From contig NZ_JH591188.1 of NCBI RefSeq assembly GCF_000242435.1, forward strand, positions 239,498-303,497: 64,000 bases of DNA, written 5' to 3'. Origin of the DNA: Dialister succinatiphilus YIT 11850. GTDB lineage: Bacteria; Bacillota; Negativicutes; Veillonellales; Dialisteraceae. Numbering within the stretch: position 1 is the first letter of the stretch; every line of letters starts with the position of its first letter. The notes under the pieces were generated by a model that was not told where the DNA came from, did not search any database, and saw only the letters and a program-made list of their open reading frames with translations. Below are positions 3,292-49,105 of the stretch, piece by piece. Made by a program: the position numbers and the translations under genes.

Positions 3292-4656
3292 ATGGGAATT
3301 CTGGATGTTTTGATGGATGTGGTGAAGCAGCCGGCGCTGATTGTGGGGCTGTTTTCTTTTATCGGCCTCATGGCTCTTCGGAAGCCTTTTCACAAGGTAC
3401 TGACAGGAACCCTTCGGCCGGTTCTGGGCTATATCATGATGATGGCCGGAGCCAATATCATTGTGGCCAATCTGGAGCCCCTGGGGCAGATGATTCATGA
3501 AGGCTTCCATATCACCGGCGTAGTGCCCAGCAATGAAGCCATCGTAGCTTCCGCTTCCCGCCTTCTGGGCACGGAAACCATGTTTATCCTGGTGGCAGGG
3601 CTCATGATGAACCTGGTCATTGCCCGGCTTACGAAATTCAAGTATGTGTTCCTCACGGTGCATCACAGCTTCTTCATGGCCTGCCTTCTGTCTGCCGTAC
3701 TGGGTACCATCGGCCTTTCCGGCGTGGAACTGGTGCTGGCGGGGGGGTTCCTTCTGGGGGCCTGGAGTTCCATATCACCGGCCATTGGCCAGAAATATAC
3801 GAACCGCGTCACCCACGGCGACCACATCGCCCTGGGCCACTTCGGCAGTCTGGCGTACTATATTTCCGCCTGGGTAGGTTCTAAGGCCGGCAAGGCGGAG
3901 GATAATATCGAATCCATGGAAATCCCGGAAAAGTGGGCTTTCCTGAAGGATACCAACGTGTCCACCGCCCTCACCATGATTGTCTTTTTCCTGCTGGCTG
4001 CCTTTGCCGCCGGCCCGGACTATGTATCCACAATTTCCCACGGCATGTCCCCGGTCATCTTCGCCATCATGGCGGGCCTTGAATTTGCCGTAGGCGTGGC
4101 GGTGGTAAGCAGCGGCATCAACATGATGCTGGGCGACCTCATCCCTGCTTTCAAAGGGGTATCGGAAAAGGTGATTCCCAATGCGGTACCTGCAGTGGAC
4201 TGCGTGGCTTTCTTCAACTATGCTCCTACAGCGGTGGTGCTGGGCTTTGTGTCCTCCTTCGTCGGCGGCGTACTGGGCATGCTCCTCCTGGGCTTTGCAG
4301 GCGGCGTTCTCATCGTTCCCGGTCTGGTGGCCCACTTCTTCTGCGGCGCTGCTGCCGGCATTTTCGGAAATGCCACCGGCGGCCGCCGGGGCGCCGCACT
4401 GGGGGCCTTCACCAACGGCCTCCTCATCACCTTTGCCGCCGCCCTTCTCATTCCTGTATTTGAAGGACTGGGCTTCAAAAATACCACCTTCGGCGATTTC
4501 GACTTCAACGTGGTAGGCATGGCCCTGTCCATGGCCTACCGTTTCCTGGGAACCTTCGGCATTTACGCCCTCATGGCCCTGGTGCTGGTGGTCCTGGTGG
4601 CACCGAATTTCATGAAGACAAAGAACCGGGTCATCAACCAGGACGAAGATACATAA
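3292..4656 (+). CDS. ulaA: PTS ascorbate-type IIC permease
   Basis: This 454-aa integral membrane protein has about 11 hydrophobic segments and closely follows the UlaA/SgaT family in length (about 460 aa). Conserved-looking stretches include THGDHIALGHFGSLAYY near residues 174-190, INMMLGDLIPAFKG near 275, and GNATGGRRGAALGAF near 355. In the family it moves L-ascorbate or a related sugar acid across the inner membrane while EIIB phosphorylates it. No EIIA, EIIB or ascorbate catabolic gene lies nearby, so it is either an orphan served by distant components or a non-phosphorylating carrier. AGAGGTAAGG precedes the ATG, and a palindrome lies 30 bp upstream. The gene is flanked by decayed PAS genes and a repeat block. 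Confidence 0.85.
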   Translation: MGILDVLMDVVKQPALIVGLFSFIGLMALRKPFHKVLTGTLRPVLGYIMMMAGANIIVANLEPLGQMIHEGFHITGVVPSNEAIVASASRLLGTETMFILVAGLMMNLVIARLTKFKYVFLTVHHSFFMACLLSAVLGTIGLSGVELVLAGGFLLGAWSSISPAIGQKYTNRVTHGDHIALGHFGSLAYYISAWVGSKAGKAEDNIESMEIPEKWAFLKDTNVSTALTMIVFFLLAAFAAGPDYVSTISHGMSPVIFAIMAGLEFAVGVAVVSSGINMMLGDLIPAFKGVSEKVIPNAVPAVDCVAFFNYAPTAVVLGFVSSFVGGVLGMLLLGFAGGVLIVPGLVAHFFCGAAAGIFGNATGGRRGAALGAFTNGLLITFAAALLIPVFEGLGFKNTTFGDFDFNVVGMALSMAYRFLGTFGIYALMALVLVVLVAPNFMKTKNRVINQDEDT

Positions 4657-4659
4657 GGG

Positions 4660-5520
4660 CGTTGGAGGTATTGGACACGCCTGTGGCGGCGAAAACCATG
4701 GGCTTTTGGGAGGAACCTTCGGGAAGCTGTATTCCCGAAGGTTGACACGCCCTTACGGGCGTGAGGGTTGAGCCAGCCGCCGGGCCTTTCGGCCCTGGGC
4801 TGCCAGGGTTCTGCCTGTGATCGGCTTCGCCTTACAGGCGGGTTGAGGGCTCCGCCCTCGGGAGGTATATAGTACCGCTCCGCTGGAGGAGTACGGCGCC
4901 CTTTCGGGCGCCATTTTTTATACCGCCTTTGGCGGCGAAAACCATACAACCGCCCTGCGGGCGAGGAAATGCAATCCCCCTTTGGTGGCTGGCGCCACCA
5001 CCTTTCCCCCTCTTCGAGGTGGCACAATAACCCGTGCTTACTGTAGAGCCGCTTACGAAGCGAGGCTTCGAGGTGTTTTATTCTGTCCCCCGGATGGGGG
5101 AAAGTCCGGCGCAGCCGGATAAGGGGGAGCCGCGTAGCGGCTAATCACCAGAATGCCAATCAAGCCCTGTGGCACAGAAAGCCAATCCCGTAACGTTCTT
5201 GCGTCCCCTTTAGGGGAAGAGGGCCACGAAGTGGCGAAGGGGTGGACGGTGGTAAGAATGATTATGATACTCGATGTGGACGTGACCGCCGAAAGGCGGC
5301 ATTATAATACTCATCGCCCGTAAGGGCGATACCACAACCCTCGGCCTGAAAGGCCGTCAAACTTAAGAACCCTCCGGCCCTCAGGCCGGTCAATCCTAAG
5401 AACCTTCACGCCCGAAGGGCAATCCGCCACCCTTTGAACCCTCTGAACCTTCTGAACCCTCTGAACCCTCTGAACCCTCTGAACCCTCTGAACCCTCGCG
5501 CCACAAAGGCGCGTCTTTTT
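4660..5520. repeat. Modular hairpin repeat block 1
   Basis: This is the most complete copy of a dispersed intergenic family. In order it has short GC palindromes (CGCCCTTACGGGCG, GGGCCTTTCGGCCC, CGCCCTGCGGGCG), a block with TTTGGTGGCTGGCGCCACC, a block with CCCCCGGATGGGGG and GTCCGGCGCAGCCGGAT (5090-5120), GGCATTATAATACTCATCGCC with small stems, then GGCCTGAAAGGCC and CCGGCCCTCAGGCCGG, and finally a 9-bp tandem array. 4735-5030 is closely matched by 19335-19650. No gene is seen. Confidence 0.85.
5436..5507. repeat. 9-bp tandem repeat, 8 units of GAACCCTCT
   Basis: Eight contiguous units occur, with one GAACCTTCT and a terminal GAACCCTCG. Read on the minus strand it would encode repeated Glu-Gly-Ser, but that frame has no start or homologous protein. 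The same unit recurs in many other gaps. Confidence 0.9.
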
Positions 5521-5530
5521 TAAAATCCCC

Positions 5531-5559
5531 TTGACTTATGGCTTTATGATAAGTAAAAT
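5531..5559 (+). promoter_or_regulatory. Sigma-A-type promoter for ileS
   Basis: TTGACT (5531-5536) and TAAAAT (5554-5559) are separated by 17 bp, directly upstream of the T-box leader. Confidence 0.7.
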
Positions 5560-5565
5560 ATAAAA

Positions 5566-5790
5566 ATACTGACAAGCGTGGATGAAGACGTTTCGCATGG
5601 ATTGATTCCAAAGAGAGCTTCCGTCTGGTGAAAGGGAGCGTTCAGCCTGCGGGAGGATCACTTCGGAGCTTCAGGGAAGAAAAGCCCTGACGGGACATCG
5701 TTAACTGTACCAAGTGGCCGGAAGGTCATGAGGGTGGTACCACGGGAAATGAATTCTCGCCCCTTGCGGGCGGGAATTTTTTATTTTGGA
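5566..5790 (+). promoter_or_regulatory. T-box riboswitch controlling ileS
   Basis: The leader contains the T-box antiterminator core AGGGTGGTACCACGG at 5731-5745, followed by an intrinsic terminator. T-box leaders bind uncharged tRNA and let transcription proceed when the amino acid is scarce. The downstream gene is ileS, so tRNA-Ile is the expected ligand. An ATC triplet at about 5658-5660 is a candidate specifier codon, which I have not confirmed by folding stem I. Confidence 0.9.
5752..5786 (+). terminator. T-box terminator
   Basis: AATTCTCGCCCC and the near-complementary CGGGCGGGAATT pair around a short loop, followed by TTTT. It is mutually exclusive with the antiterminator. Confidence 0.85.
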
Positions 5791-5819: not shown

Positions 5820-8663
5820 ATGGATTACAGCAAGACTTTACATCTGCCGCAGACGGATTTCCCCATGCGCGGCAATCTGCCGAAGAAGGAACCGGGCTTT
5901 GTGGATTTCTGGCAGGAACATGACCTCTATCATGCCAGACAGGAAAAGAGAAGAAAGGACGGCGCACCGACCTTTGTTCTTCATGATGGACCTCCTTATG
6001 CCAATGGCAAGATTCATATCGGCCATGCACTGAACAAGACACTGAAGGATATCATTGTCCGCTACAAGCATATGGCCGGCTATGAAGCCAACTATATCCC
6101 CGGCTGGGATACCCACGGACTTCCTATCGAATATGCGGTACTGAAGGATTCCGGCGAAGACCGGGCCAACATGACTCCTCTGGAACTTCGCAGAAAATGC
6201 CTGGCCTATGCCAAGAAATGGATTGCCATCCAGAAGGCCGATTTCATCCGTATGGGCGTGGTGGGCGATTTTGCCAATCCCTATGTCACCTTTGATCCCC
6301 ATCTGGAAGCCAAGGAACTGGAAGTTTTCGGCGAAATGGCCAACAAGGGCTACATTTACAAAGGCAAGAAGGCTGTATACTGGTGCCCCCACTGCGAAAC
6401 CGCTCTGGCCGAAGCAGAAATCGAATATAAAGACAGAAAGTCTCCTTCCATTTATGTCAAATTCCCGGCAGTGGACCTGAAGGGCCTTGCTCCTGAAGGG
6501 GTGCCGAAGGACAAGCTCTTTGCCGTCATCTGGACCACCACTCCCTGGACCATTCCTGCCAATGAAGCCATCTGCGTGAACCCGAAGTTCACCTATGTAT
6601 GGGTACATAACAAGGCAGCCGATGAATACTACCTCATGAACAAGGAACTGGCACCGAAGGCGCTGGAAGAATGCAAAGTAGAAGATTATGAATTTGTGGG
6701 CCGTGAAATGACCGGCGCTGAATGGGAACTGGCTACTTTCCATCATCCCCTGCTGGACCGTCTGGCTTACGTGCTGGAAGGCAACCATGTCACCCTGGAT
6801 GCCGGCACCGGCTGCGTTCATACCGCTCCGGGACATGGTGTCGACGACTTTGAAGTGTGCCAGGACTACAGAAATAAGGGCAAGCTGGATCTGCCCATCA
6901 TCTGCCCGGTGGATGAAAAGGGCCATATGACCGCGGAAGCCGGTCTGGGCCTGGAAGGCAAGACCATCTGGGAAGCAGAAGGCCCTGTCATTTCCGCTCT
7001 CGCTCATGCAGGCATGCTGCTGGGCAAGAAATCCATTCACCATCAGTATGCACACTGCTGGCGCTGCAAGAACCCCATTATCTACAGAGCTACAGAACAG
7101 TGGTTTGCATCTATCAATGATTTCAGAGACAAAGCACTGAAAGCCGTAGACGACACCCGTTTCATTCCTTCCTGGGGCCATGACCGTCTGTACAACATGA
7201 TTCGCGACCGTCAGGACTGGTGCATTTCCCGTCAGCGTTCCTGGGGCGTGCCGATTCCTGCCTTCTACTGCGATGACTGCGGCAAATGGGTGATCACACC
7301 GGAAACCATGAAGAAAGTGGAAGAAATCGTGGAAAAAGAAGGCACCGATGCATGGTGGGCCCACAGTGCAGAAGAACTGCTGCCGGAAGGCTTCAAATGC
7401 CCCCACTGCGGCGGCACCCATTTCCACAAGGAAAAGGACATTATGGACGTATGGTTTGACTCCGGCTCCACCTGGAACGGCGTCCTCCGCTATCCCCACA
7501 AGGAATGGGAAGGCGTGAAATATCCCTGCGACCTTTATCTGGAAGGCTCCGACCAGCACCGCGGCTGGTTCCATTCCTCCCTCCTCTGCTCCGTTGCCGT
7601 CAACGGCTATGCCCCCTACAAGGCAGTCCTCACCCACGGCTTCACCATGGACGGAGAAGGCCGCAAGATGAGTAAATCCGTAGGCAACGTAGTGGCTCCC
7701 CAGGATGTGATTAACAAGTACGGCGCCGACGTAATGCGCCTCTGGATTTCCTCCGTGGACTACCAGGGCGATGTACGCCTCTCCGACAAGATCATCAAGG
7801 CCATGAGCGACGTATACCGGAAAATCAGAAATACCTTCCGCTACCTCCTGGGCAACCTCTATGACTTCGATCCGAAGAAAGACAGCGTAGCCTATGAAGA
7901 TATGGAAGAACTGGACCGCTGGGCACTGCTCCGCCTGGAACAGGTGAAGGAAACGGTTCTCAAAGCCTATGACGACTACCAGTTCCATGTGATGTACCAT
8001 GCAGTGCACAACTTCTGCACCGTCGACCTGTCCTCCATTTACCTGGATATTCTGAAGGACCGCCTCTACACCGAAAAGGCGGACGGCAAACTGAGAAGAA
8101 GCGCCCAGACCGCCATGTATGAAATCCTTACCACCCTGGTACGTTTGGTGGCACCGGTTCTCTGCTTCACCTCCGAAGAAGTATGGCAGGCTCTCCCGAA
8201 TAAGGAAGAAAGAGAATGGTCTGTCCATATGGCAGACATGCCGAAAGCCAATGAGAAATATCTGGATGAAGCACTGGACGAAAAGTGGAAGAAACGGCTG
8301 GCTGTCAGAAGCGTAGTCACCAAAGCGCTGGAAGAAGCCAGACAGGCCAAGACCATCGGCCATCCGCTGGACGCTGAAGTCACCGTCTACGCCGACGGCG
8401 ATGAATTCCAGGTGCTGAAGGACATGGAAAAAGAACTGGCCGACTTCTGCCTCGTATCCCAGGCAAAGATTGAAGAAGGCACCGAAAAAGCACCGGAAGG
8501 CGCAGCTTCCAATGAAGAAGGCACCGTGAAGTGCTCCGTAGCCGTATGCACCCTGGAAAAATGCGAACGCTGCTGGAAACGGACCCCCGATGTGGGAAGT
8601 GATGCCGCTCATCCCCATGTCTGCGCCCGCTGCGCCCATGTACTCCAGGAAATGGGAGAATAA
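5820..8663 (+). CDS. ileS: Isoleucyl-tRNA synthetase
   Basis: This 947-aa class I synthetase charges tRNA-Ile. The HIGH signature is at residues 66-69 and KMSKS at about 616-620. The CP1 editing region lies between them, with TTPWT near 240. The C-terminal zinc-binding motif (CERC ... CARC, about 915-940) is of the bacterial type with full-length C-terminus. AGGAGG stands 6-7 nt before the ATG. It is transcribed alone from a T-box leader and ends at a strong terminator 30 bp past the stop. The codon bias produces a very long open frame on the opposite strand, which I regard as an artefact. Confidence 0.98.
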   Translation: MDYSKTLHLPQTDFPMRGNLPKKEPGFVDFWQEHDLYHARQEKRRKDGAPTFVLHDGPPYANGKIHIGHALNKTLKDIIVRYKHMAGYEANYIPGWDTHGLPIEYAVLKDSGEDRANMTPLELRRKCLAYAKKWIAIQKADFIRMGVVGDFANPYVTFDPHLEAKELEVFGEMANKGYIYKGKKAVYWCPHCETALAEAEIEYKDRKSPSIYVKFPAVDLKGLAPEGVPKDKLFAVIWTTTPWTIPANEAICVNPKFTYVWVHNKAADEYYLMNKELAPKALEECKVEDYEFVGREMTGAEWELATFHHPLLDRLAYVLEGNHVTLDAGTGCVHTAPGHGVDDFEVCQDYRNKGKLDLPIICPVDEKGHMTAEAGLGLEGKTIWEAEGPVISALAHAGMLLGKKSIHHQYAHCWRCKNPIIYRATEQWFASINDFRDKALKAVDDTRFIPSWGHDRLYNMIRDRQDWCISRQRSWGVPIPAFYCDDCGKWVITPETMKKVEEIVEKEGTDAWWAHSAEELLPEGFKCPHCGGTHFHKEKDIMDVWFDSGSTWNGVLRYPHKEWEGVKYPCDLYLEGSDQHRGWFHSSLLCSVAVNGYAPYKAVLTHGFTMDGEGRKMSKSVGNVVAPQDVINKYGADVMRLWISSVDYQGDVRLSDKIIKAMSDVYRKIRNTFRYLLGNLYDFDPKKDSVAYEDMEELDRWALLRLEQVKETVLKAYDDYQFHVMYHAVHNFCTVDLSSIYLDILKDRLYTEKADGKLRRSAQTAMYEILTTLVRLVAPVLCFTSEEVWQALPNKEEREWSVHMADMPKANEKYLDEALDEKWKKRLAVRSVVTKALEEARQAKTIGHPLDAEVTVYADGDEFQVLKDMEKELADFCLVSQAKIEEGTEKAPEGAASNEEGTVKCSVAVCTLEKCERCWKRTPDVGSDAAHPHVCARCAHVLQEMGE

Positions 8664-8744: not shown

Positions 8745-9235
8745 ATTTTTAAAATCTGCGGCGAAGCCGCCACCGCCACCCTCTGAACCTTTTGAACCTT
8801 CTGAACCCTCACACTGAAGGTGTGTCCAAGGGTAAGAAACAAAAATGACACAGGCCGCCGATTGGCGGTCAGGATAACGATGGGGTGTCAAATCGGCGCA
8901 CTGCCTTGTACACCCTTTGCCTCTTCGAGGCATTCCCCTCAAGGGGAAACGAGAATTATGGAGAGGAAAAACAGAGAGTCATATATTTCATGTACCATTC
9001 CGCAGTTTCCCCCTTTGGTGGTGAACGCAGTGAGTCTATCACCAGCATGCGTATCATGCCATATGACCCATAAAGCCAATCCCGTAACGCTGACTTTATA
9101 AGCAATCGCCCAAGAGGGCGATACCACAACCCTTGGCCTGAAAGGCCATCAAACTTAAGAACCCTCCGGCCCATAGGGCCGGTCAATCTTAAGAACCTTC
9201 CCTTTTGAGCCCTATGAACCCTCACTCCGCAGGTG
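8745..9235. repeat. Modular hairpin repeat block 2
   Basis: It has a short 9-bp array (8785-8811, GAACCTTTT/GAACCTTCT), the CTGAAGGTGTGTCC module, a TATGACCCATAAAGCCAATCC-type segment near 9060, GAGGGCGATACCACAACCC, and the stems GGCCTGAAAGGCC and CCGGCCCATAGGGCCGG. It runs into the 3' end of the FliB-like gene at 9212. No gene is seen. Confidence 0.8.
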
Positions 9236-16384: not shown

Positions 16385-16735
16385 CACTCTGTGGCCCGGG
16401 TTTAAAAGGTTCAGAAGGTTCAAAGGGTTCAGAGGGTGGCGGTGGCGGCTGACGCCGCAGATTATAAAAAAGGGGGCGCGGCTGGCGCAGCCGGATAGAG
16501 GGTATATCTGCCGCAGGCAGATCATTCAGCAGACTGTTTACCAAGCCATACGACACAGAAAGCCAATCCCGTAACGCTGACTTCATACTCATCGCCCAAG
16601 AGGGCGATACCACAACCCTCGGGGCCAAAGGCCCCGTCAAACTTAAGAACCCTCCGGCCGTCAGGCCGGTCCATCTTAAGAACCCTCACACCGAAGGTGT
16701 GTCCAATGAACCCTCACGCCGAAGGCGTGTCCATA
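16385..16735. repeat. Modular hairpin repeat block 3
   Basis: Here the 9-bp array is inverted (GGTTCAGAA type, 16407-16438) relative to the others. It is followed by the GCGCGGCTGGCGCAGCC segment, the TACGACACAGAAAGCCAATCC segment, the GCCCAAGAGGGC stem, the GGGGCCAAAGGCCCC stem, the CCGGCCGTCAGGCCGG stem and two ACACC/GGTGT modules. No gene is seen. Confidence 0.85.
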
Positions 16736-19274: not shown

Positions 19275-19275
19275 G

Positions 19276-19306
19276 AAAAACTCCACCCTGGCGGTGGAGT
19301 TTTTTG
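19276..19306 (+). terminator. rplI terminator
   Basis: AAAAACTCCACC and GGTGGAGTTTTTT form a near-perfect hairpin, starting 1 bp after the stop codon. Confidence 0.93.
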
Positions 19307-19309
19307 CGT

Positions 19310-20235
19310 CACTGGCGGCGCTTTCCAGTATTCCCGAAGGTTGACACGCCCTTACGGGCGTGAGGGTTGAGCCAGCCGCCGGGCCTTTCGGCCCTGGGCT
19401 GCCAGGGTTCTGCCTGTGATCGGCTTCGCCTTACAGGCGGGCTCCGGGCTCTCGCCCTCGGGAGTTATATAGTATCGCTGCGCTGGCGAGGTTGGCGCCC
19501 CCAAGGGCGCTAGTATAAATGCCGCCTTTGGCGGCGAAAACCGGACAACCGGGCTTCGCCCGAGGAAAACAGGCCAACCGCCCTGGCGGGCGTGGGAGAT
19601 TCCCCCTTTGGTGGCTGGCGCCACCACTTTCCCCCCACTTCGTGGTGGGACTATGGATGCTTAGCCATGGAGCCATGTCTCTGCAGGAAAGCATAGAGCG
19701 ATTTATTCTGTCCCCCGGATGGGGTGGCAAGGGAACACGATTCGTAAGGGAGCAAAGCGACCTGAGAATCGTGTGACACGCTTTCCCGTGGAGAAAGTCC
19801 GGCGCAGCCGGATAAGGGGGAGCCGCGCAGCGGCTAATCACCAGAATGCTTACTATGCCATATGACACAGAAAGGTGAATCCGTAACGCTGACTTCATAC
19901 TCATCGCCCGAAAGGGCGATACCGCCACCCTTTGAACCCTTTGAACCCTTTGAACCCTTTGAACCCTTTGAACCCTTTGAACCCTTTGAACCCTTTGAAC
20001 CCTTTGAACCTTCTGAACCCTCTGAACCCTCACACCGAAGGTGTGTCCAAAGGCGCCAGCCGCGCCCCTTTTTTATAATCTGCGGCGAAGCCGCCACCAC
20101 AACCCTCGGGGCCGAAGGGCCGTCAAACTTACGAACCCTCCGGCCCATAGGGCCGGTCCATCTTAAGAACCTTCACGCCCAAAGGGCAGTCCACCATCCT
20201 ATGAACCCTACGAACCCATTGAATCCGGCAGCCCA
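19310..20235. repeat. Modular hairpin repeat block 4
   Basis: 19335-19650 repeats 4735-5030 almost module for module. 19660-19920 repeats the CCCCCGGATGGGG / GTCCGGCGCAGCCGGAT / TATGACACAGAAAGG block. The block ends with the longest 9-bp array and the GGGGCCGAAGGG and CCGGCCCATAGGGCCGG stems. Stem loops differ between copies while the arms stay complementary. No gene is seen. Confidence 0.88.
19934..20032. repeat. 9-bp tandem repeat, 11 units of GAACCCTTT/GAACCCTCT
   Basis: Eight identical GAACCCTTT units are followed by GAACCTTCT, GAACCCTCT and GAACCCTCA. The perfect run suggests recent slippage, so the array is a likely length-variable locus. Confidence 0.92.
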
Positions 20236-20240
20236 TCACT

Positions 20241-21699: not shown

Positions 21700-22563
21700 C
21701 TGTATTCCCGAAAGTAAGAGGGTTCAGGCGCCTTTCGGCGCCCTTTTTATATTTGCGGCGCGAGCCGTCACCACACCCTCTGAACCCTCATGTGCGCATT
21801 CTGCATAGAATGCGCAAGTCAGCCGAAGTTGGCCCTGCGTAGAATGGTATTGGAGCAACATTGTCATTCTTACCCACGTACACCCTTTTGCCACTTCGTG
21901 GCACTTCACCCACAGGGAAGCGTGTCACTGGATTCGCGGGTCGCTTCTCTCCCCTATGAATCCAGTTCCCTTGCCACCTCAAGGGGAAACGAGAAAATTA
22001 GAGGTGTCTTCCTCTTGTCGGCTGACCGTTCGCAGGCGTGCCCAATGTCTGCTATCCGCTATCCGCTATCCGCTGTCCGCTGACTGATGGCTGTCAGGCT
22101 GTTTGAAGTCCAGAAGGTTTTTGCGATATGAAAGAAAGGCGAAGCACGTAACGCTGACTTTATACTCATCGCCCAAGAGGGCGATACCACAACCCTCGGG
22201 GCCAAAGGCCCCGTCAAACTTAAGAACCTTCCGGCCAAGGGCCGGTCAATCCTAAGAACCTTTCTCCCTGCCCCCCTGAGCGAAAGCGAACACAACCTGC
22301 CGCCATTAGGCGGCCATAACCCTCGGGCCAAAGGCCCGTCAACCCTCACGCCCGCAGGGCGTGTCCACGGGCGTAGCCCTCTGAACCCGGGCCACCCAGT
22401 GGCCCCATGGGCGATACCACAACCCTTGGGCCCACAGGGCTCATCAAACTTACGAATCCTCCGGCCCATTGGGCCGGTCAAACTTAAGAACCTTTTTCCA
22501 CAACCTTTCTACACAACCCACGGCGGAGCCGTGCCCCTTCGCGCCCAACAGGCGCGGCCCCCC
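21700..22563. repeat. Modular hairpin repeat block 5
   Basis: It contains a GCGCCTTTCGGCGCC stem, a segment shared with 44405-44450 (AAGTCAGCCGAAGTTGGCC), a segment shared with 48145-48200 (GAAGCGTGTCACTGGATTC ... GAATCCAGTTCCC), a 7-bp tandem repeat, and several GGGGCCAAAGGCCCC-type stems. It runs up to, and supplies, the TGA of the minus-strand gene at 22564. No gene is seen. Confidence 0.8.
22050..22085. repeat. 7-bp tandem repeat CCGCTAT
   Basis: About five units, CCGCTAT three times then CCGCTGT and CCGCTGA. It is distinct from the 9-bp family. Confidence 0.8.
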
Positions 22564-24334: not shown

Positions 24335-24870
24335 GGCCCCGCTGTGGATTCAGGCGCCTTTCGGCGCCCGGGTTCTATCGTTCGTGTGCTGCGCACCGAA
24401 CGATGGGTTCAACCCACAGAGCGGGCTGGTTCAGAGGGGAGTTTTATATACCGCTGCCTGGGGCAGCGAAAACCATACAACCGCCTTACGGACAAGCCCT
24501 GACAGGCTTGAGGGTTCTAAAGTTTGACGGGGCTATCGCCTCGAGGGTTCTTAGGTTTGACGCGCCTACGGCGCGAGGGTTGTGGTGGCGCCTCTAAATT
24601 TATAGAAGGCGCCCTCTTATGATAAAACCTAACAACCGGGCTTCGCCCGAGGGAAATCAGGCCGACCTCGCTACGCTCGAGGCAATGCATTCCCCTTTGG
24701 CAGCTGGTGCCAACACCTTTCCATCGGGGGAGGGGGACCGTGAAGCGGTGGAAGGGGGGCCGCCTGAAAGGCGGCACTATAAAACTGCGGCGAAGCCGCC
24801 ACCACAACCCTCACCCCAAGGGCGTGTCCAAACTGCACCGGCGCTGCAGAGTGGTCCCCAAAGTATTGCC
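24335..24870. repeat. Modular hairpin repeat block 6
   Basis: A GGCGCCTTTCGGCGCC stem is followed by TTCTATCGTTCGTGTGCTGCGCACCGAACGATGGGTT, an arm-matched module repeated at 27937-27975 and 32723-32760 with altered arms. Then come GCCTGGGGCAGCGAAAACC, AACCGGGCTTCGCCCGAGG and GGGCGTGTCC modules. No gene is seen. Confidence 0.82.
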
Positions 24871-27889: not shown

Positions 27890-28400
27890 GTGGTGTATTC
27901 TCGAAAGTAAGAGGGTTCAGGCGCCTTTCGGCGCCCGGGTTCTATCGGTCATGTGCTGCGCACTGACCGATGGGTTCGGCCTGGGAACGGCTTCGCCTTC
28001 CGGGCTGGTTCAGAGGGGAGTTTGATATGCCGTGCGGATCTTTATTGTCCCACCGCTCAGCGGGGGGAAGGTGGTGCCGTAAGGCACCAAAGGGGGGAAA
28101 AGACACCGGAGGTGGCTGATTACCGTAGTGCTTACTATGCCATATGACACTGAAAGTAAATCCCGTAACGCTGACTTTATAAGCATTGCCGCAGAGCGGC
28201 AACCCGCCACCTTCAGCGCCGCAGGCGCTGTCGCCCCCTGAGCGGAGCGATGCAACCCTTCTACACAACCCGCGGCAAAGCCGCGCCCCTTTTTTTAAAA
28301 TCTGCGGCGCGAGCCGCCACCACACCCTTTGAACCCGCCTGCCAAAGGCAGGCAGAACCTTCTGAACCCTCTGAACCCGGGCCACCCAGTGGCCCCATAA
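27890..28400. repeat. Modular hairpin repeat block 7
   Basis: It contains GGCGCCTTTCGGCGCC, GTTCTATCGGTCATGTGCTGCGCACTGACCGATGGGTT, a shortened version of the TATGACACTGAAAGTAAATCC block, CCGCAGAGCGG, GCGCCGCAGGCGC, and a decayed 9-bp array split by CTGCCAAAGGCAG. No gene is seen. Confidence 0.82.
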
Positions 28401-32589: not shown

Positions 32590-33300
32590 CTGAAAGGGGG
32601 GCAGCGGCTAATCACCAGAATGCCTATCATGGCCTATGACATAGAAAGCCAAATCCGTAACGCTGACTTCTTAGGGACACGCCCTTTTGGGGCGTGAGGG
32701 TTCAGGTGCCTTCGGCGCCCGGGTTCTATCGTTCATGTGCTGCGCACCGAACGATGGGTTCGGCCCACAGAGCGGGCTGGTTCAGAGGGGAGTTTTATAT
32801 ACCGCTGCCTGGGGCAGCGAAAACCGTACAACCGCCCTGACGGGCGAGGAAATGCATTCCCCCTTTGGTGGCTGGCGCCACCACTTTTCCCCCCGCAAGC
32901 GGGGGCACTATGGATGCTTAGCCATGGAGCCATGTCTCCGCAGGAAAGCATAGAGCAATTTATTCTGTCCCCCGGATGGGGGAAAGTCCGGCGCAGCCGG
33001 ATAAGGGGGAGCCGCGCAGCGGCTAATCACCAGAATGCTTACTATGCCATATGACACAGAAAGGTAAATCCCGTAACGCTGACTTTATAAGCATTGCCCG
33101 CAGGGCAATCCGCCACCCTCAGCGCCGTAGGCGCTGTCGCCCCCTGAGCGAAAGCGAACATAACCCTTCTACACAACCCGCGGCGCCAGCCGCGCCCCTT
33201 TTCTTTAAAATCTGCGGCGAAGCCGCCACCACCACCCTCTGAACCTTTTGAACCTTCTGAACACTCTGAACCCTCGCGCCCTTTGGGCGCGTCTCTGACC
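32590..33300. repeat. Modular hairpin repeat block 8
   Basis: It reuses nearly all modules: GGGACACGCCC, GGTGCCTTCGGCGCC, the GTTCTATCGTTCATGTGCTGCGCACCGAACGAT module, the TTTGGTGGCTGGCGCCACC block, the CCCCCGGATGGGGG / GTCCGGCGCAGCCGGAT block, and a 9-bp array at 33238-33284 (five units). 32935-33080 closely matches 19670-19885. No gene is seen. Confidence 0.85.
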
Positions 33301-43926: not shown

Positions 43927-44073
43927 GCCATCCCGAGCGGAGGAACGTGCCGGTATAGGTGGTAAAGACTTCAGGCTCTGATGAAGCTCTGAGCCGAGAG
44001 ATCTCCCGCCGTAATGCTGCCCGGACCATCAGAGGGGGAGATTTCTCCACTCCGCGCCGACCGTCGAAATGAC
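43927..44073. mobile_element. GTCATTTCGA element, copy 2 (inverted)
   Basis: It reads from CCATCCCGAGCGG to GTCGAAATGAC, the reverse orientation of copy 1, with the shared inner motifs GAGATCTCCC and GGAGATTTCTCCACTCCG. It lies just past a terminator. Confidence 0.65.
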
Positions 44074-44099: not shown

Positions 44100-44262
44100 T
44101 CTGCGCCCCCTAAAGGGGAAACGACTCACTACATTTTGCGCGTCGCTAGCGCTCCTTCAAAATGTGTTCGCTGTGCACCGAAGGGCGCCACCACAATCCT
44201 TTGAACCCTCTGAACCTTATGAACCCTCTGAACCCTCACGCCCGCAGGGCGTGTCCACTGGT
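44100..44262. repeat. Modular hairpin repeat block 9 (short)
   Basis: A decayed 9-bp array (44195-44240: GAACCCTCT, GAACCTTAT, GAACCCTCT) ends in the CGCCCGCAGGGCG stem and GTGTCC. It lies between two copies of the GTCATTTCGA element. Confidence 0.7.
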
Positions 44263-44275
44263 GCCCGCCGTCATC

Positions 44276-44504
44276 GTCATCTCGAGCGGGGCTGCGTGCC
44301 GGTATAGGGGCAGACAGGAACCGCTCCGATGATACTTTGAGCCCGGAGATTTCCTGCCTCAATGCTTCATGTACCATTGAGAAGTGAGATTTCTCCACTC
44401 TGTGGAGACTCTGCATAGAGTCTCCAAGTCAGCCGAAGTTGGCCTCTAGCCTGCACAATAAGAGGCTTTCCTATTGGCGGCTGACCGGCTTTCGTCGAAA
44501 TGAC
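44276..44504. mobile_element. GTCATTTCGA element, copy 3 (inverted, expanded)
   Basis: It starts GTCATCTCGAGCGG and ends TCGTCGAAATGAC. About 90 bp are inserted near the right end, including AGTCAGCCGAAGTTGGCC, a segment also at 21820-21840. Confidence 0.6.
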
Positions 44505-47548: not shown

Positions 47549-47682
47549 GTGATGAATGAAAAGGAAAAAGGGGCTGTGAAGAAATGATTGATTTCTCCTC
47601 GGATAGTTAGACATTGGGCGGCAGACGCCTTATTATAGGTCTGCAAGGAACAAATTGACGCAAACGCTCACCCCGCTTCATT

Positions 47683-47830
47683 GTCATTTCGACCGAAGCG
47701 AAGCGGAGTGGAGAAATCTCCCTCTCCCAATGGCACAAGCAGCATTGGGGCGGAGATCTCTCGACTCAGAGTCTCAATAGAGCCAAATACCTTTGCTCTC
47801 ATATCGACATGCAGCTCCGCTCGAGATGAC
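47683..47830. mobile_element. GTCATTTCGA element, copy 4
   Basis: It runs from GTCATTTCGACCGAAGCG to CCGCTCGAGATGAC in the same orientation as copy 1, with inner GGAGAAATCTCCC, GGAGATCTCTCGACTCAGAGTC. It is non-coding. Confidence 0.7.
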
Positions 47831-48069: not shown

Positions 48070-49105
48070 TGACACCATACGATTCCTGCACCATTCAGGA
48101 GCTTCCCCCTTTGGTGGCTGTGCCACCACCTTTGCCCCGGTGGGAAGCGTGTCACTGGATTCTCAGTCGCCTGCGGCTCCCTACGAATCCAGTTCCCTTG
48201 CCACCCCGCAAGCGGTGGGACAATAAAGCTCTGCAAGGCTATTATCTCATAAGTAGCACAAGGCACAGCACGGGTTGTTCTGCCACCGCTTGCGGGGGAA
48301 GTCCCGCAAAGCGGGATAGGGGGCGGCCGCCAAAGGCGGCCAATTCAGCACGTTACTAAGTACCGTAAAGATACATTAATCATTGCGTCCCCTTTGAGGA
48401 AGAGGAAACACGATTCGTAGGGGAGCAAAGCGACCTGGGAATCCAGTGACATGTTTCCCATCGGGGCGAAAAGGGCCACGTGCATGAAAACTTGCCTCCC
48501 CCTGCTTGCAGGGGGAGGGGAACCGCGTGAGCGGTGGAAGGGGTTGGTAAGAACCGGGAAGATGCACTAAGGTACAGCAGGCCGCCGTTTGGCGGGCAGA
48601 TTGGCAATGGAGTTTCATATCGGCGCTCCGCCTCGTACACCCTTTGCCGCTTCGCGGCGTTCCCCTCAAGGGGAAACGGGAGATTGGGACGGGTAAACCA
48701 TTGAGGCATATTCTTCTTGTATCCTTTCGGCGCTTTCCCCCTTTGGTGCCTTCGCCACCACCTTTCCCCCGGAGGGGAAACTTTTCTCTCCGCTATATAA
48801 TGAGCAGCTTAAGTTAGCGCAAGGAGAAGAATAGAGCAAATCTCCCCCTGCGGGGGAGACGCCGCCGCAGGCGGCAGAGGGGGTGCATTTCCAACGGGCG
48901 AAGCCCGGTTGGCATGTTTTCCCTGCCCGACAGGGCGGGCTTTTAAGGTTTAATCAAAAGAGGCGCCCTTTTTATCGTAAGGGGGCCCACCGCTATGGCC
49001 GCCGTTAGGCGGCATATAAAAATAACGCCCGCAATGCGGGCGTTTCCTTCCCCTCTGAACCCTTTGAACCTTCTGCACCCTCTGAACCCGGGGGCGCCCT
49101 GCGCC
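48070..49105. repeat. Modular hairpin repeat block 10
   Basis: It has several partial copies of the TTTGGTGGCTGTGCCACC, GAAGCGTGTCACTGGATTC / GAATCCAGTTCCC, CGCTTGCGGGG, GGCCGCCAAAGGCGGCC, CGCCCGCAATGCGGGCG and 9-bp (49050-49090) modules, in both orientations. Stretches such as CCCCCTGCTTGCAGGGGGAGG are near-perfect hairpins. No gene is seen from 47940 to 49107. Confidence 0.8.

Follow-up and report, generated by a model that had tools for sequence, protein, structure and literature searches.

The intergenic gaps of the 64-kb stretch of DNA analysed here (the window) probably owe their content to several families of mobile palindromic elements that are non-autonomous, REP- or REPIN-like in kind but different in sequence; we put the probability of this reading at roughly 0.58. 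Each family would combine short constant stretches (linkers and, in the family called X, also loop and flanks) with stems that need only to pair. Behind this proposal stand constant linkers that flank variable but complementary stems, a strand-specific loop preference, the nesting of X at precise positions within host hairpins, where no target is duplicated, and whole gaps that turn over between closely related species. Among bacterial repeats they are a strong natural example of conserved structure with changing sequence, and one genome carries hundreds of copies. Since linkers, loops and stems are separable, the repeats open two questions to testing: the way palindromic repeats spread when no RAYT is present, and the origin of matched arms in selection or in templated repair.

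Genomes and samples

The window is part of a 2.50-Mb genome in 14 contigs (G000), which was compared with five others of its genus (G001 to G005), one genome per species. The comparison relies most on G005, whose valS-like gene is 97% identical to that of G000 (over that one gene). The main repeat unit, F1, was searched for in 464 kb of G000, namely the 64-kb window and 20 further stretches (400 kb), of which 17 lie on contig 1, two flank the window and one is the start of contig 2. The contig 1 stretches were chosen partly at sites with F1 matches, so densities from the 20 stretches are not genome averages; the G005 stretches were likewise picked at F1 sites. Assignments to gaps or genes all use our own hexamer-based gene caller. 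The F1 totals for G000 (433, 501 or 326) differ because the search patterns differ: matches containing an internal AACC or N were left out, and the scan giving 326 also excluded those with a tied right linker.

Organization of the intergenic gaps

The original prediction held that at least ten gaps, with ten named from 4.7 to 48.1 kb, share the same ordered set of modules. The sharing is confirmed, with a mosaic of fixed linkers flanking GC hairpins in all ten named gaps and F1 in eight (it is missing from 27.8-28.6 and 46.9-49.1 kb); the common order holds within sub-arrays, but whole gaps are different mosaics. Two added gaps (14.9-15.4 and 50.5-51.1 kb) were searched for the modules and have none. 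Each string quoted as an example can be located: the 4.7 kb gap contains CGCCCTTACGGGCG and the 19.3 kb gap CGCCCGAAAGGGCG, CGCCCAAGAGGGCG lies in both the 16.4 and 21.7 kb gaps, and the contrasted pair consists of ATCGTTCG...CGAACGAT (24.4 kb) and ATCGGTCA...TGACCGAT (27.9 kb). This last module has a third copy at 32.7 kb, ATCGTTCA...CGAACGAT, an intermediate changed on one side only. The blocks do avoid the ribosomal cluster, but trivially so, as the ribosomal-type cluster from about 51 kb (named by reading) has almost no intergenic space. The main features are collected in Table 1.

Table 1. Positions of the principal repeat features in the window
Feature	Position	Strand	Remarks
Intergenic mosaic, 4.7 kb gap	4657..5530	.	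between ORF 3292-4656 and ORF 5820-8663
F1 unit, reversed	4742..4769	-	TTGA[CACGCCC TTAC GGGCGTG]AGGGTT
Slot-1 hairpin ATCGCCC-GTAA-GGGCGAT	5313..5330	+	
Two F1 units in succession	5332..5399	+	linkers CCACAACCCT / TCAAACTTAAGAACCCT / TCAATCCTAA
Short tandem GAACCCTCT repeat	5420..5513	+	ends in hairpin CGCGCC-ACAAA-GGCGCG plus T tail, terminator-like
Mosaic gap 3' of valS-like ORF	8750..9232	.	composition wholesale different from orthologous gap in G005
Ordered array: one slot-1 hairpin and four F1-type hairpins	16580..16729	+	DNA fold z-score -8.45
Mosaic gap	19275..20240	.	5 F1 matches, 10 heptad matches, module CCCCCGGATGGGG
X-type hairpin, arms ACACGATTC/GAATCGTGT	19725..19791 (approximate ends)	-	inside CCCCC-GGAT-GGGG module; nesting read from sequence
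X-type hairpin, arms ACTGGATTC/GAATCCAGT	21927..21966	+	
Third family: GGCGCC hairpin, then ATCGTTCG-TGTGCTGCGCAC-CGAACGAT	24340..24430	+	
Two F1 units	24518..24585	-	second with one-sided change GAGGC/GCCCC
Third family copy	27910..28010	+	two compensated pair changes, ATCGGTCA/TGACCGAT
Third family copy	32680..32800	+	one-sided intermediate, ATCGTTCA/CGAACGAT
X element, 71 bp, in host hairpin	44107..44177	+	joined flanks restore GCGCCC-GAA-GGGCGC
X-type hairpin, arms ACTGGATTC/GAATCCAGT	48149..48198	+	

Perfect hairpins (arm 6, loop 3-5) number 172 in the window, 109 of them within the 16,089 bases that our gene calls leave non-coding. A Markov model gives 6.1 per 10 kb, whereas the observed density is 26.9, a 4.4-fold excess. 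The excess is smaller in the relatives, with 20.2 vs 7.9 in G005, 17.4 vs 7.3 in G003, 13.6 vs 8.2 in G001, 17.8 vs 11.7 in G002 and 11.2 vs 7.0 in G004.

The window has other features as well. Longer modules around CATTTCGAC / CATCTCGAG with GGAGAAATCTCC, at 43930-44060, 44270-44400 and 47680-47830, form another dispersed family, also present in G005 (stretch L145). A leader-like region at 5540-5780, with a GGTGGTACCACGG stretch before ORF 5820-8663, resembles a T-box; Rfam models at gathering scores found one tRNA only in the whole window, and no RNA family matched this region or the repeats. At 2070-2750 a protein-coding fragment looks to be duplicated in inverted orientation, both strands showing similar stretches.

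Constant linkers and compensatory stem changes in F1

F1 has the form AACCYT-[hairpin]-TC. Of its 433 matches in the 464 kb, 383 have 4 or more perfect stem pairs, comprising 34 stem sequences; a single mismatch within the first five pairs occurs in 32, and 18 fall in neither class. A looser linker scan (326 matches in G000) found 97.5-98% of stem cells paired at one to four linker mismatches, dropping to 89% at five and to 57% at six, the last being a class into which chance and unrelated matches enter. In G005 the same kind of scan gave 59 matches, whose pairing was lower (80-95% for one to five linker mismatches). The sequence TTAAGAACCYTC occurs in 232 copies in G000, 40 in G005 and two in G004.

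Covariation was measured on 47 distinct F1 copies of one length class, not selected for pairing. Paired cells made up 95.7%, against 75.9% after shuffling, and cells changed on both sides numbered 46 against 13.3, with such changes in five of the six pairs. The covariation score of 0.504 (0.169 shuffled) was reached in none of 500 shuffles. Two weaker measures did not differ from shuffling (pairs with a both-sided change, 142 of 500 shuffles; further pair types, 46 of 500). In slid-pairing controls, which unlike the shuffles keep relatedness, only 20-47% of cells paired and 0-6 were changed on both sides, though the structure had been defined from these same F1 repeats. In 94 arrays the mutual information between arms was 2.10 and 1.83 bits (0.39 and 0.28 expected). 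The both-sided share of pair differences was 0.914 vs 0.205 in G000 and 0.738 vs 0.254 in G005. The claim that arms change while complementarity is kept is thus borne out far beyond shuffling. Its companion, selection for base-pairing, stands as to the complementarity but not as to the cause: the data also fit templated correction of palindromes.

How might one stem become another? In G000 and G005 together there are 43 stems of at least 5 bp, and 38 of these, holding 454 of the 462 perfect copies from both species, are joined in one network of single base-pair steps; stem diversity is therefore reachable by ordinary two-step compensation. Under the mobile-element reading, stems would drift by one-pair steps through mismatched intermediates less fit for mobility. 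Among the 50 imperfect F1 matches, 27 differ from a common core by a single change and 17 are compatible with being chimeras of two common cores; 11 belong to both groups and 17 to neither.

The alternative that survives best is that one arm templates the other during replication, by strand switching at quasi-palindromes. Complementarity would then be a mutation bias without selection, and the linkers would be kept alike by gene conversion between copies. The one-sided mismatched copies, more than half of which (27 of 50) lie so close to perfect ones, agree with this, as does one chimeric X hairpin with arms ACTGGATTC/GAATCGTGT, and a single bias would explain the like behaviour of several unrelated families. 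We nevertheless consider it unlikely as the main explanation, in that mismatched copies persist and that nested insertions, growth of copy number in one lineage and the strand-specific loop type are left unexplained. Constancy of the linkers, on the other hand, does not by itself prove that they are recognised, because they may be alike partly through the copies being recent.

Loops and the probable folding strand

DNA forms stable GNA and GNNA loops. On the AACCYT strand, 64 of 84 distinct tri- and tetraloops have the form R..A and only four the mirror form T..Y; therefore one strand seems to be the folding one. Folding energy alone does not pick the strand, since DNA structure at 16580-16729 is strong on both (z -8.45 and -7.64). 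GNRA accounts for only five of 12 G..A tetraloops, which gives RNA no special preference. A bias toward G-T mismatches, considered as a sign of RNA, was not seen among the 32 single-mismatch F1 stems, which in unit orientation have 7 G.T vs 14 A.C.

Genomic context and turnover

Of the 383 perfect F1 units, 335 lie in gaps and 14 in called genes, the rest being beyond the outermost calls of a stretch. An array's outermost hairpin can extend into the 3' end of the gene next to it, as in stretch L134 (about 601-640), where the stop codon is within TGAGGGTT. Units occur in 41 of 134 gaps between two forward genes (++), 15 of 41 (--), 19 of 41 (+-) and 12 of 39 divergent gaps (-+). Their orientation relative to genes is even (84 and 79 in ++ gaps, 27 and 27 in -- gaps). 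When 11 orthologous gaps of G000 and G005 were compared, most differed wholesale, and at no fewer than three of them, by reading, F1 arrays are present in one species only (L147, 9870-10220; L151, 740-1610; L158, 16730-17140).

These data bear on the possibility that the host selects the base pairing, with the hairpins serving as terminators, mRNA 3' protectors or protein-binding sites, in RNA or DNA. The intergenic siting of F1 agrees with such a function, and three terminator-like sites lie in 4650-5535 where 1.1 are expected. However, most hairpins there lack a T tract by reading, and even orientation together with the occupied divergent gaps speaks against a main role at transcript ends. 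Adding the turnover of gaps between close species and the missing G-T bias, we find a host function quite unlikely to account for the repeats.

X elements nested within hairpins

X-type hairpins have a constant loop and flanks around arms that in G000 are ACTGGATTC, ACTGGATTT, ATGATTTG, ACACGATTC, ACATTTTG or ACTTGATTC. At fixed anchors in G000, 56 of 65 are perfectly paired, with six arm sequences, and in six more a nested insert breaks the hairpin. Between GTCGC and CTCC the apical bases are hypervariable, in length as well as sequence (AGGG, CTACAG, GAGG and TTCT, for example). The X element proper, CCCCTAAAGGGG...GTGCA, is 70 or 71 bp long. Insert lengths include 70/71, 144, 217 and 436, a series of +73n, as 73-bp repeats are often added; one X element (stretch L120, about 6347-6639) holds the 73-bp hairpin unit Y five times, spaced by exactly 73 bp.

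There are 28 X left ends in G000, six without a right end within reach and 22 two-ended, although these 22 may partly stem from one event because arrays are duplicated. Excision of X restores a host hairpin of at least 5 bp in 11 of the 22; the other 11 restore none, which counts against the mobile-palindrome reading. In the restored cases X lies within the 5' arm, two to four bases ahead of the loop, and no bases are duplicated; in seven of these 11 the joined 22-mer is also present elsewhere without interruption. The hosts include F1 hairpins and slot-1 hairpins. In G005, one of four two-ended copies restores its host. A search of 150 genomes of the class with the X pattern found it in G000 only, in a sample that excludes G005 and with an arm-fixed pattern that misses copies with other arms. 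Restoration without target duplication points to mobile palindromic elements recognised by linker and folded shape, and nested X and strand-specific loops, neither of them part of the original prediction, together argue for folded elements that move, over a function selected in the host.

A single composite element (a MITE of 0.5-1 kb that spread recently and left fragments in gaps) might account for the long arrays of some gaps, their recurrent order and their inverted outer parts, but is very improbable given that hairpins differ in 1953 of 2357 pairs of copies with identical linkers, that neighbouring hairpins are nearly unlinked (mutual information 2.43 vs 2.11 expected in 94 arrays, the excess being largely one subfamily) and that the end anchors of a full-length MITE do not pair, save for one pair among 27. 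The blocks are likewise not identical copies of one recent transposon, the finding named beforehand as refuting the original prediction, because hairpins assort almost freely and differ behind identical linkers. An empty F1-array site with clean ends was sought in the orthologous G000/G005 gaps, and none was found.

Possible routes of mobility

In the mobile-palindrome reading, movement would proceed through a folded single strand recognised by its linkers and stem shape, a protein encoded elsewhere in the cell would perform it, and recombination among hundreds of copies would reshuffle neighbouring hairpins. Two things weigh against this reading: no instance of movement was observed, with one genome per species, and several candidates were rejected as mobiliser. 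Y1_Tnp/RAYT (PF01797) has no matches in G000 or G005, and among the six genus genomes matches only in G003. Reverse transcriptase (RVT_1) genes are present in G000 but absent from G005, although G005 has F1 repeats; the G000 matches number four (contigs C1 and C4), three with identical scores, and the five other genus genomes have none. Four IS110 elements in G000 have no shown link to the arrays, and an IS110-like copy in stretch L125 lies, by reading, in unrelated sequence. A viral origin was also set aside: an exact linker 17-mer occurs in two stretches of viral contigs, compatible with chance. We found no report on repeats of this organism in the literature outside subscription journals and preprints. 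It is possible, if doubtful, that the repeats represent an undescribed class of mobile DNA, with recognition through linker and loop, freely paired stems, precise insertion into hairpins without duplication, and an enzyme that is neither a RAYT nor an element-borne transposase.

Comparison with known palindromic repeats

Compensatory stem changes have already been reported for REPINs and REPs, and F1 shares them. REPINs are described as mobile palindromes in which the folded form and linkers matter (PMC3116915), and both kinds, in the accessible text of their descriptions, resemble the present repeats in their hundreds of intergenic palindromic copies with conserved outer sequence and a hairpin middle (PMC3116915, PMC3733652). 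The high intergenic copy number of F1 and TTAAGAACCYTC follows the same pattern. Unlike REPs and REPINs, F1 has no GTAG tag at the palindrome foot, its feet being AACCYT and TC; there is no Y1/RAYT gene in G000, and several unrelated families are nested in each other. Precise element-in-hairpin insertions are a further difference from REPINs. CGTC-type REPs, as far as the available part of their description goes, have a CGTC tag, 8-9 bp stems starting with AT pairs, and loops of 4-5 (PMC3733652), whereas F1 stems usually measure 5-8 bp and start with C-G in most cases, and F1 loops are mostly of 3; GTC does follow most F1 stems.

Small intergenic non-coding repeats with hairpins also recall BIMEs and bacterial MITEs, to judge from the accessible portion of the source (PMC2229807). 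Unlike MITEs, X has no target-site duplication and its flanks join exactly in restored cases, and F1 arrays as a rule lack paired terminal inverted repeats. REPs are known as targets of insertion sequences, IS110 among the families, where mobile elements sit in palindromes and joined flanks restore the REP, according to the sections available (PMC1525189); the inserted piece here is instead a 70-bp non-coding hairpin element without transposase. The palindromes of Volvox organelle DNA, hairpins with short recurrent loops that are treated as selfish DNA, fill most non-coding DNA and are often inserted in one another (PMC2670323, accessible text). Those repeats belong to organelle genomes, and fixed linkers with covarying stems are not among the features described in that part of the paper. 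X within F1 and slot-1 hairpins gives palindromes within palindromes here too, a likeness of form.
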